A model generated the notes under the pieces. That model was not told the DNA's origin, did not search any database, and was given only the letters and a program-made list of their open reading frames with translations. Positions 21,728 through 27,414 of a DNA stretch of 64,000 bases are shown piece by piece; position 1 is the first letter of the stretch, and every line of letters begins with the position of its first letter. The stretch is from Microbacteriaceae bacterium 3FA27C10 (GTDB taxonomy: Bacteria > Actinomycetota > Actinomycetes > Actinomycetales > Microbacteriaceae): the NCBI GenBank assembly GCA_005502775.1, contig SCNI01000018.1, positions 1-64,000 on the forward strand, given 5' to 3'. The translations under genes were made by a program, and so were the position numbers.

Positions 21728-23290
21728 CTAGGCGGGTGGGGAGGCGACCGGTCGTGGCGGGTCGAAGACCGCCGGCGAGAAGTCGGCGTTGCGCGCGCGG
21801 AAGCTGTGGGCGAAGTCGGGCCAGAGCAGCGTGAGGCGGCCGTTGCGCGCATCGACGTACCAGCTGTTGCAGCCGCCCGTGAGCCAGACCGTGGACGCGC
21901 TGAGCTCGTCGACGGTGCGGGTGTACTCCTGCTCGGCCTCGGCGGTGACGCTCAGCACGAGGCCGTCATTGGCAGCGCTGTAGCGGAGCGCGCCCAGGAT
22001 GTAGTCGATCTGCGCCTCGATCATGTAGACCGCCGAGTTGTGCCCGAGACCGCCGTTCGGCCCGTTGACGACGAAGAGGTTCGGGAAGCCGGCCATCACG
22101 GTCGACGCGAACGCCGTCATCCCGCCCGCCCAGTGATCGGCGAGCAGCTGCCCGTCTCGTCCGCGCGTGAGTCGGGCGTAGGGCTGCTCGGCCGAGTGGA
22201 AGCCGGTCGCGAACACGAGGGCGTCGACCTCGTGCTCGCCGCCGTTGCGCGCCACGAGCGTGTTGCCGCGGATGCCCGCGAGCGCCGAGGGCTCGACCGT
22301 GACGTGGGGCTCGGCCACCGCCGGGTAGTAGTCGCTCGAGATGAGCACGCGCTTGCAGCCGATCTCGTAGTCGGGCGTGAGCTTGGCGCGCAGCCCGGGA
22401 TCGGACACTTGCGCTTCGAGGTGCGCGAGCGCGCGGGATCGGGCCGCGGCCGTCGCATCCGCATCCCCGGCCCTCTGCGCGAAGGCCTCCTCGGCCTTCC
22501 AGAACAGGCGCGAGCGCACCCGTTCGAGCTCCTCCGGGTCGCGCGCGAACAGCGAGCGTTCGGCGGCCGAGTAGACGCGCGTGTCGCGCGGGATGATGTA
22601 GGGCGCGCTCCGCTGCATCACCACGAGCTCCGAGGCGACGGCGGCGAGCTGCGGCACGATCTGGATGGCGGAGGCGCCCGAGCCGACCACCGCGATGCGC
22701 TTGCCGGCGAGCTCGGCCGTGTGATCCCAGCGCGCGGAGTGGAACATGGGGCCGTCGAAGCCCTCGATGCCGGGCACATCGGGGATGCGCGGCTCGGTGA
22801 GGCGCCCCGCCGCGAGCACCACGGCGTCGGCCGTGAAGGCGCCGCGCGTGGTGTCGAGTCGCCAGAGGGCGGCGTTCTCGTCCCAGTCGAGCCCGAACAC
22901 CTCGGTGTCGGTGAGCAGGTGGGGCAGCACGCCCTCCTCCCGCGCGGCCGTCTCGATGTAGCGGCGGATCTCGGCCCCCGGTGCGAAGACGCCCGACCAG
23001 TCGGGGTTGGGCCGGAACGAATAGCAGTAGAGGTGCGAGGGCACGTCGCAGGCCACCCCGGGGTAGCTGTTGTCACGCCAGGTTCCGCCGACGCCCGAGC
23101 CGCGCTCGAACACGAGGTACGACGACTCGCCCTGGCGTTGCAGCCGGATGCCGAGGCCCACTCCGGCGAATCCGGCGCCGATGACCGCGACGCGCACGTG
23201 GGCGACGGGGGGTGCCGGTGCCGTCCCGCGGGCTGAACGGGGAGCGGTGGCCGGGTCGGGAGCGGCGCCGGAGGCGGTGGGGTCGATCAC
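21728..23290 (-). CDS. Baeyer-Villiger-type flavin monooxygenase
   Basis: The 520-residue protein has an FAD motif VIGAGFAGVGLG (37-46), an NADPH motif VVGSGASAIQ (201-210) and the Baeyer-Villiger fingerprint FDGPMFHSARWDH (178-190), matching FxGxxxHxxxW. It should insert an oxygen next to a ketone, or oxidise S or N. The first 30 residues are a disordered Pro/Ala leader; the GTG start at 23290 overlaps the upstream hydrolase stop (GTGA), so the start is probably real. It is the third gene of a coupled trio with a CofH-like protein and an alpha/beta hydrolase. A ketone monooxygenase followed by an ester or lactone hydrolase would be a coherent pair. Confidence 0.87.
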   Translation of the reverse strand: MIDPTASGAAPDPATAPRSARGTAPAPPVAHVRVAVIGAGFAGVGLGIRLQRQGESSYLVFERGSGVGGTWRDNSYPGVACDVPSHLYCYSFRPNPDWSGVFAPGAEIRRYIETAAREEGVLPHLLTDTEVFGLDWDENAALWRLDTTRGAFTADAVVLAAGRLTEPRIPDVPGIEGFDGPMFHSARWDHTAELAGKRIAVVGSGASAIQIVPQLAAVASELVVMQRSAPYIIPRDTRVYSAAERSLFARDPEELERVRSRLFWKAEEAFAQRAGDADATAAARSRALAHLEAQVSDPGLRAKLTPDYEIGCKRVLISSDYYPAVAEPHVTVEPSALAGIRGNTLVARNGGEHEVDALVFATGFHSAEQPYARLTRGRDGQLLADHWAGGMTAFASTVMAGFPNLFVVNGPNGGLGHNSAVYMIEAQIDYILGALRYSAANDGLVLSVTAEAEQEYTRTVDELSASTVWLTGGCNSWYVDARNGRLTLLWPDFAHSFRARNADFSPAVFDPPRPVASPPA

Positions 23291-24057
23291 GGCCGGCTCC
23301 GCCCGAGGATCGCGCCGGCGGGGTGCCGCCGGGGCTCGGCGAGGAAGCCGTCGACGAGGCCGAGCACCTCGGCGGGGCGCTCGCGCAGCACGCCGTGGCC
23401 GCTCTCGACCTCGGTGTAGCGCGCATCCGGGATCGCGGCGAAGAGCAGCCGGGTCTCGCGGGCGGTGGCGATCTCGTCGTGGGCGCAGCCGATCACGAGG
23501 GTCGGCGCCGTGATGCGGGTCGCGAGGGTGGCGAGATCGACGGGCGCGGAGGCGCGGGAGGGGGTGGCGGCGAGGCGGACGAGGGCGGCCGAGCGCTCGT
23601 CGATGCGGGGCAGGGCCGCGGAGTCCCAGCCCTCGGCGCTGTACAGGGCGCTGCGCTGCACCTCGGCGAGGGCATCCGGGTCGCTGTGCGCGAGTCGCTG
23701 CCAGAGCGAGGCGAGGGCGATGAGCTTGGGCGAGGGGCTGAGCCAGCCGGCGATCAGCACGAGCGCCGAGACACGCTCCGGATGCTCCGCCGCGAACACC
23801 GCAGCGGCGACGGCCCCGACGGAGTAGCCGATCAGCGCGGGCGGGGTGGTGGTGGCGTTCGCCGCGGCACCGATCCGCGTCGTCAGCTCGGCCACCGTGG
23901 GCGTCGTGGGGAGATCGTCGAAGGACGCGGTGGTCACGGTGCGGCGGCGGCCGAGCATCGGCCCGAGGAAGGAGAAGTCCGCGGCATCACCGGAGAGCCC
24001 GGGCACGACCACGACGCGCGGGTCTCCGTCGGACTCGGTGCGCGCATCCGTCGTCAC
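23287..24057 (-). CDS. Alpha/beta hydrolase
   Basis: From the GTG at 24057, which overlaps the stop of the upstream CofH-like gene as GTGA, the product is 256 residues. The fold is visible in VVVVPGLSGDAADFSFLGPML, the nucleophile elbow GYSVGAVAA with Ser about 77, the Asp strand ITAPTLVIGCAHDEIA and the His in ESGHGVLRERP. It should hydrolyse an ester, lactone or similar bond. Coupling to the Baeyer-Villiger monooxygenase on its 3' side (4-bp overlap) suggests that it opens the ester or lactone that enzyme makes. The substrate is unknown. Confidence 0.82.
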   Translation of the reverse strand: MTTDARTESDGDPRVVVVPGLSGDAADFSFLGPMLGRRRTVTTASFDDLPTTPTVAELTTRIGAAANATTTPPALIGYSVGAVAAAVFAAEHPERVSALVLIAGWLSPSPKLIALASLWQRLAHSDPDALAEVQRSALYSAEGWDSAALPRIDERSAALVRLAATPSRASAPVDLATLATRITAPTLVIGCAHDEIATARETRLLFAAIPDARYTEVESGHGVLRERPAEVLGLVDGFLAEPRRHPAGAILGRSRP

Positions 24058-25241
24058 GGTCGGGCCGCCGGCGCTCGGTGGCTCGAGGGCGCTTCGGCGG
24101 CGCCGGCCGTGCGTGCCGCCGCGAGGCGCTCGGCGGAGGGCTCGCCGTAGACCGTGGTGCGCTGCCGTGCGGGGCGGCCGAGGGCGGCCGCGGTGCGCTC
24201 GATGTCGGCGATGCTCAGCGAGCGGCCGTACTCCACGCCGGCGGAGGGCAGCACCCGCCCGTCGTAGAGCGTGCCGCCGAGATCGTCGGCGCCGCTCTCG
24301 AGCATCACCGCGGAGTGGGCGAGGCCGAGCTTGGTCCACGGCACCTGCAGATGGTCGATGCGCCCGAGCAGGGCGAGCCGCGCCACGGCCGTGACCGCCC
24401 GGTGCTCGTCGAGCTCGGAGCGGGCGGTCACCAGCGGCTCGAGCTCGGGGAACGGCATGGGCACGAACTCGGTGAAGCCGCCCGTCTCCTCCTGCAGCCG
24501 TGCGAGGGTGCGCAGGTGCGCGACCCGGGCGGCCGGGCTCTCGCCCCGGCCGTAGAACATGATCGACGTCGAGCGGAAGCCGAGGCCGTGCGCCGCGCGC
24601 ACCACCTCGAGCCAGCGGTCGACCGGCAGGTCGCCGGGGGCGAGGCGTCGCCGCTGGGTCTCGTCGAGCAGCTTGACGCCCGTGCCCGGAACCGAGTCGA
24701 CCCCGGCCTCTCGCAGCGAGGCGAGGAACTCGGGCATCCCGAGCCCCGAACGGCGTGCGCCGTCGACGAGGTCGGCGGGCCGGAAGGCATGCAGGTGCAG
24801 CCCCGGCTGTCGGGCCTTCACCGCTCGGGCGATGTCGGCGTAGACGAACGGATGCGCGTCCGCCGTCGCCGCATCCGCCGTGCGCTCCCCGGCGGCCGGC
24901 ACGGTGCCCTGGACGCACAGCTCGGTGGCGCCGAGCTGCCAGGCGTCGTCGGCGATGTCGCCGATCGCAGCGAGGTCGAGTACGCGGGGCGCGCCGGCGT
25001 GCGGCCCGCTCGTCGGGGGCACGGATGCGCCGAAAAGATCGGAGGAGACGTTGCGGTTCACCACGAAGCGCACGGCCTCTCCGACGGCTTCGCGGCGGAG
25101 CGCATCCGCGAGCCCGGTGAGGGCGTCGAGCTCCTCGCCCTCGGCGAGGAGGAGAGCCGCGAGCTCGGCGTCGGTGAGCGAATCGGGCGTGACGGACGCC
25201 CGCGCGAGCGCGGTGCGCACAGCCGGAATCGAAGACGACAT
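24054..25241 (-). CDS. CofH-like protein lacking radical-SAM cysteines
   Basis: The 395-residue sequence follows the CofH half of FO synthase along most of its length: VRFVVNRN (58-64), DDAWQLGATELCVQG, VKARQPGLHLHAF, AGVDSVPGTGVKLLD, GFRSTSIMFYGRGESP, ETGGFTEFVPMPFPELEP and, near the end, GRPARQRTTVYGEPS. CofH joins the hydroxybenzyl and deazaflavin parts of coenzyme F420 by radical-SAM chemistry. Here the CxxxCxxC segment that should follow VVNRN is replaced by VSSDLFGASVPPTSG, and the protein has only one Cys (109), so it cannot hold the [4Fe-4S] cluster. It may be a repurposed binding or scaffold protein. It leads a trio with an alpha/beta hydrolase and a flavin monooxygenase. A TAGGCT -10 ends 7 nt before the ATG. 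Confidence 0.8.
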   Translation of the reverse strand: MSSSIPAVRTALARASVTPDSLTDAELAALLLAEGEELDALTGLADALRREAVGEAVRFVVNRNVSSDLFGASVPPTSGPHAGAPRVLDLAAIGDIADDAWQLGATELCVQGTVPAAGERTADAATADAHPFVYADIARAVKARQPGLHLHAFRPADLVDGARRSGLGMPEFLASLREAGVDSVPGTGVKLLDETQRRRLAPGDLPVDRWLEVVRAAHGLGFRSTSIMFYGRGESPAARVAHLRTLARLQEETGGFTEFVPMPFPELEPLVTARSELDEHRAVTAVARLALLGRIDHLQVPWTKLGLAHSAVMLESGADDLGGTLYDGRVLPSAGVEYGRSLSIADIERTAAALGRPARQRTTVYGEPSAERLAAARTAGAAEAPSSHRAPAARP

Positions 25242-25339
25242 CGAACCGAGCCTAACTCCGGCGAGACCACCCCGAGGGCGGCCCGGCGCTCACGTTACGC
25301 CCACGGGGAACATGGAGGCGGCGTCCAGTCCCCGACGGG

Positions 25340-25345
25340 TACCCT
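25340..25345 (+). promoter_or_regulatory. Probable ftsH -10 element
   Basis: TACCCT lies 56 nt before the ftsH ATG and would start transcription near 25352, leaving a 50-nt leader that contains GAAGAGA before the start codon. No convincing -35 is visible. Confidence 0.4.
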
Positions 25346-25401
25346 TGCACCACGACCTAAGCACTGTGCCGACCCCATCGGCACCATAGCGGTGAAGAGA
25401 C

Positions 25402-27414
<2,013 letters not shown>

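Follow-up and report, generated by a model that had tools for sequence, protein, structure and literature searches.

A Cys-less CofH homolog linked to a Baeyer-Villiger-type monooxygenase is a candidate oxygen-dependent replacement for the radical-SAM CofH step of F420 biosynthesis

A CofH domain of the FbiC type without its iron-sulfur cluster cysteines (psi-CofH) and a type I Baeyer-Villiger-type flavin monooxygenase (BVMO), with an alpha/beta hydrolase as an accessory, probably constitute an O2-dependent replacement of the radical-SAM CofH step in F420 biosynthesis. This reading was reached by comparative sequence analysis and draws on the loss of the radical motifs of psi-CofH with retention of fold and selection, the constant linkage to the BVMO, the F420 pathway around it, the intact CofG, and the mutual exclusion of psi-CofH and canonical CofH. 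In the canonical pathway, tyrosine is the source of a 4-hydroxybenzyl radical that CofH transfers to 5-amino-6-ribitylaminouracil, after which FO is made by CofG (PMC8498797). The window, i.e., the whole stretch of 64,000 nucleotides that was analysed, contains the following features:

24054..25241, minus strand: psi-CofH, a CofH domain of the FbiC type without cluster Cys, present as a stand-alone gene; 395 aa, ATG start (25241 to 24054); from profile matches and alignment
25002..25049, minus strand: variable loop, approximately residues 65-80 of psi-CofH, which replaces the CxxxCxxC cluster loop; from alignment
24915..24917, minus strand: codon of C109, the sole Cys of the window psi-CofH; from alignment with canonical CofH
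23287..24057, minus strand: accessory alpha/beta hydrolase of 256 aa with a GYSVG elbow; overlaps the stop of psi-cofH by GTGA
21728..23290, minus strand: type I BVMO of 520 aa, the core partner of psi-CofH; overlaps the stop of the hydrolase gene by GTGA

The first-pass annotation had placed a CofH-like gene at the coordinates of the first of these features, which is correct, and the strand is minus. It had described the homology as almost full length, and the profile matches agree: the window psi-CofH matches NCBIfam NF006687 (FbiC) with 334 bits over profile positions 477-847, the CofH half, and TIGR03551 (CofH) with 274.7 bits. The latter score is lower than the equivalog cut-off of 374.1, the protein is also under the FbiC equivalog cut-off, and the Pfam Radical_SAM match begins only at residue 82. 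In canonical congeners the cluster loop is CYTGCRFC, whereas the window protein has the unrelated stretch VVNRNVSSDLFGASVPPTSGPHAG in the alignment. As had been noticed from the sequence, the CxxxCxxC segment is replaced and a single Cys is left: the three cluster Cys residues are gone and C109 (TELCVQG) remains. By alignment, C109 is conserved in canonical CofH as well, and it is not a cluster ligand. A good promoter had also been proposed, but no sigma-70-like site was found in positions 25150-25500, in a scan that is a weak test for actinobacteria.

A single contig-wide scan with one sequence returned six loci, and wider sampling was done by genome profile searches. Within the window's family, Microbacteriaceae, 400 genomes were searched with the A2 profile, built from 14 psi-CofH sequences. 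A CofH match was found in 92 of them, one match each, and the 92 loci comprise 66 Cys-less forms, 25 canonical forms and one fragment. Loci from other families and named records (Salinibacterium, Tsukamurella) were added, those outside the family being among the matches listed, to give a total of at least 79 psi loci and at least 55 canonical loci. Salinibacterium xinjiangense is an example of a psi carrier in culture. The fragment (locus L146, genome G218) is a truncated piece of cofH that falls in the canonical clade of the CofH tree; it was moved out of the psi count, and so is not a psi exception without a BVMO.

None of the 74 aligned psi rows, which come from different genomes, has a Cys in the cluster loop, and the loop varies in length from 5 to 27 residues. 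A sequencing error, the escape allowed for in the first-pass annotation, is thereby excluded, and the same loss in 79 loci rules out a one-off event. In the CofH tree, the psi sequences form one clade of 74 rows, and the named loci L048, L049, and L053 group with the window, in line with its assignment to the Microbacteriaceae. According to this tree psi-CofH arose once, so that the BVMO linkages do not represent separate origins. Fusion to CofG is the rule for psi-CofH domains; in three loci from other families (L039, L040, and L148), psi-cofH is a separate gene with an unfused cofG nearby, so that the system does not depend on the fusion. A psi-CofH/BVMO locus in Tsukamurella sp. 8F (L050) lies outside the Microbacteriaceae, and its nearest relative in the CofH tree is from genome G151 of that family, a position that suggests horizontal transfer.

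Other motifs have also diverged. The GGIHP column, invariant in canonical CofH, is variable in psi-CofH and reads CVQGTVPA in the window; the Glu of PGTAAEI is lost, being mostly Arg or Lys instead, and the SR of ISRMAG is lost. In radical-SAM folds, the GGIHP (GGE-type) motif and the PGTAAEI Glu are probable SAM contacts. Residues common to psi and canonical CofH are N62, R63, N64, E107, C109, Q111, H151, P185, G186, and T187, and further along W210, H218, H242, E258, Q299, W302, D320, R361, and Y365. Four psi-specific residues are nearly invariant: R154 (Ser in canonical CofH), E234, G328, and P332. The retention of the fold and of N62, R63, N64, E107, and H151 would be compatible with a psi-CofH that still performs radical chemistry, using different ligands to bind an iron-sulfur cluster. 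We consider this very improbable, since no conserved replacement ligand for the cluster is present in the Cys-less, length-variable loop across the 74 psi rows, and the GGIHP motif and the PGTAAEI Glu have been lost too.

Psi-CofH is under purifying selection, with dN/dS of 0.12-0.35 in 15 pairs; the mean sequence difference between rows is approximately 49%, and the frame is intact in nearly all loci. The AlphaFold2 model of the window protein (pLDDT 81.7) has MqnE as its top structural match (TM 0.71-0.75), and profiles and predicted structure together identify it as a full-length homolog with the CofH/MqnE fold. Lost catalytic motifs and a freely variable cluster loop could be seen as signs of a dying gene in organisms where FO synthesis is no longer needed, but this is hardly credible: decay is ruled out by the dN/dS values, the frames have stayed intact at about 50% mean divergence, and both the core residues and the psi-specific residues are conserved. 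In psi-CofH the radical machinery is gone, and the fold and selection are retained. The first-pass description of a repurposed pseudo-radical-SAM protein is right as to pseudo-radical-SAM, given the loss of the cluster Cys, GGIHP, and the conserved Glu from a retained fold; "repurposed" calls for revision, as the evidence keeps psi-CofH in F420 biosynthesis, within a CofG, psi-CofH, and BVMO system that occurs in many genomes.

That description of a CofH-like gene had overlooked the adjoining hydrolase and BVMO genes and the large clade. The gene order in the window is psi-CofH, then the alpha/beta hydrolase, then the BVMO, and consecutive genes overlap by 4 bases at each junction, an arrangement indicative of a single operon with translational coupling. 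The BVMO fingerprint FxGxxxHxxxW[PD] is located between two GxGxxG motifs, and its F, G, H, and W are conserved in 72-73 of the 73 rows; the final position varies, with D in 36 rows. R314 and D82, corresponding to the catalytic Arg and Asp whose roles are described in PMC4966971, are found in 73/73 rows, and both nucleotide-binding motifs are retained in the operon BVMOs, whose closest solved relatives include phenylacetone monooxygenase. Roughly one psi locus in three has the hydrolase; in most it is missing or degenerate, which rules it out as a core part of the system. In three loci of one genus (L071, L074, and L085, genus g95), a shortened hydrolase remnant without the GxSxG elbow lies between psi-cofH and the BVMO gene, and the hydrolase there seems dispensable or decaying. 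A second neighbour family (f1) was discarded, as it corresponds to the BVMO gene read in an antisense frame.

A same-strand BVMO gene lies downstream of psi-cofH in 78 of the 79 psi loci, and the contig of the 79th stops 61 bp past psi-cofH. At canonical CofH loci there is none (0/55), with at least 3 kb visible in 50 of these. The raw Fisher value for the psi/BVMO linkage is 9e-37 for a trait with a single origin on the CofH tree; the weight of the linkage is in the keeping of the pair over large divergence and in rearranged loci (L039, L040, and the window), not in the p-value. In the window, CofG is unlinked, yet the BVMO stays with psi-cofH. BVMO orthologs of at least 765 bits are restricted to psi genomes, the next homologs scoring 681 and 570, and pairwise distances of psi-CofH and BVMO are correlated (r 0.81; 0 of 2000 permutations as high). 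These data bear on the view that psi-CofH serves CofG in a structural or regulatory role, with the CofH reaction done by an unrelated, unrecognised enzyme encoded elsewhere and the BVMO a mere neighbour. Pseudoenzymes are often allosteric partners, and psi-CofH is mostly fused to CofG, which speaks for such a role. Against it, all complete psi loci have the BVMO gene after psi-cofH and no canonical cofH is followed by it, the window operon has kept the two together with cofG on another contig, and a search covering the CofH family found no second member of that family in psi genomes. We therefore think a role as CofG partner rather unlikely.

The O2-dependent replacement of the CofH step accords with the genomic context. 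FbiA is present in 74 of 75 psi genomes checked, the exception being G237 (95% complete, 6% contamination), and FbiB and F420H2-reductases are each present in 11/11 psi genomes. Psi-CofH thus co-occurs with CofG, FbiA, and FbiB, as an F420 biosynthesis gene does. Psi and canonical CofH never occur in the same genome, and both types are found within the window's genus. Several relatives (G021, G030, G035, G037, G044, G046, and G049, also G040 and G053, and the less complete G024) have FbiA, FbiB, and F420H2-reductase genes, and profile searches of these genomes gave no FbiC, CofG or CofH matches; judged by gene content, they may import FO or use another FO synthase.

Such relatives lend some weight to another possibility, namely that CofG, psi-CofH, and BVMO make a modified deazaflavin or other metabolite instead of FO, and that any F420 derives from imported FO via FbiA and FbiB: they indicate that FO import or another source may exist, and the psi-specific R154, G328, and P332 could mean a new substrate. 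A modified product is nevertheless rather unlikely, because psi and canonical CofH swap one for one in F420-type genomes, including within one genus, and because the CofG that accompanies psi-CofH in the window genome is of canonical type and sits at the native fbiC site.

The first-pass annotation had asked for a check for a true fbiC elsewhere in the window genome, and there is none. An FbiC profile matches only two places, CofG and psi-CofH. The intact CofG (C28:5811-7043) has CRDRCHYC, and the genome also encodes FbiA (C28:9922-10881), FbiB (C88:2813-3412), and four F420H2-dependent reductase family members. The gene order at the lone-CofG locus (L030) is f4 f5 f6 f7, cofG, f8 ... fbiA f10 f12 f16, and the mirror order surrounds the full canonical fbiC of a congener in L032. 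From this shared order, the native fbiC locus has lost its CofH half, and psi-CofH and the BVMO are on another contig.

The CofG of the window genome groups with canonical CofG (support 84/96 and 86/95). A placement with the CofG of the closest relatives of psi-CofH was rejected (AU p 5e-5), but a placement with canonical CofG was not (p 0.07); the window psi-CofH is firmly within the psi group of those relatives in the CofH tree (100/98). Since CofG falls with canonical rows and psi-CofH with the psi group, the window genome looks like a natural domain swap, in which a canonical-type CofG is combined with a psi-CofH/hydrolase/BVMO operon of other ancestry. The psi-CofH/BVMO module thus appears to feed an ordinary CofG, and the swap would imply the ordinary CofG substrate. 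In the CofG tree, psi and canonical forms are not cleanly separated (a 35-row set with support 96/97 consists of 19 canonical rows, 15 psi rows, and that of the window genome), a pattern consistent with the two systems sharing one CofG substrate. The CofG cysteines are kept in psi loci except in one broken frame and one fragment; the former is the cofG of L108 (G323), which we set aside as a CofG without Cys because its frame is broken.

How the replacement would operate can be proposed at two levels. Somewhat short of an even chance, we suggest that the dead radical-SAM protein is kept for its substrate pocket and that the BVMO gives a p-quinone methide equivalent, so that polar chemistry replaces radical C-C bond formation and CofG stays. 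The exact donor chemistry, from BVMO through a 4-hydroxybenzyl ester to p-quinone methide, is put forward more tentatively still. The BVMO would act on a 4-hydroxyphenyl ketone or aldehyde derived from tyrosine, for which 4-hydroxyphenylpyruvate is a guess, and insert an oxygen between its carbonyl and benzylic carbons; the resulting 4-hydroxybenzyl ester would expel the carboxylate to yield p-quinone methide. Psi-CofH would hold 5-amino-6-ribitylaminouracil, whose nucleophilic C5 would add to the p-quinone methide. This addition would give, without a radical step, the adduct that CofH normally makes, 5-amino-5-(4-hydroxybenzyl)-6-ribitylimino-dihydrouracil; on chemical reasoning, the polar addition would entail no net redox change. 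Ordinary CofG would then close the ring to FO, and the accessory hydrolase would suit ester handling.

We found nothing relevant in the open-access literature on a Cys-less FbiC, a CofH with a Baeyer-Villiger enzyme, or an alternative FO route. A 2021 review of F420 states that the mechanism of FO synthesis is universal among all studied producers and involves two radical-SAM domains (PMC8498797). In contrast, 66 of the 92 sampled CofH-bearing Microbacteriaceae genomes are without one of those domains. If the proposal is true, there would be an aerobic route to the deazaflavin core and an unusual new use of a radical-SAM fold; with CofG the sole remaining radical-SAM enzyme, the enzyme set could ease aerobic F420 production, and annotation of psi genes as FbiC/CofH would mask a different mechanism.

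Among known systems, psi-CofH resembles FbiC/CofH (EC 2.5.1.147, the radical-SAM 5-amino-6-(D-ribitylamino)uracil--L-tyrosine 4-hydroxyphenyl transferase) in its full CofH-length sequence, usual CofG fusion, F420 genome context, and many core residues. It differs in having no cluster Cys and no GGIHP, in its replaced SAM-side residues and sub-cut-off scores, and in being always beside a BVMO. MqnE aminofutalosine synthase (PDB 6XIG, 6XI9), of a sister radical-SAM family, is the closest solved fold to the psi-CofH model; unlike psi-CofH, with which it shares 24% identity, MqnE is an active radical-SAM enzyme, of menaquinone synthesis. The operon BVMO shares the fingerprint, the Asp/Arg pair, and the nucleotide-binding motifs with type I BVMOs such as cyclohexanone and phenylacetone monooxygenases, but forms its own orthologous group tied to psi-CofH. 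In thiamine biosynthesis, the O2-using flavoenzyme ThiO takes the place of the radical-SAM tyrosine lyase ThiH, a precedent for such an exchange; ThiO replaces ThiH outright, whereas the psi system retains the inactivated radical-SAM protein.
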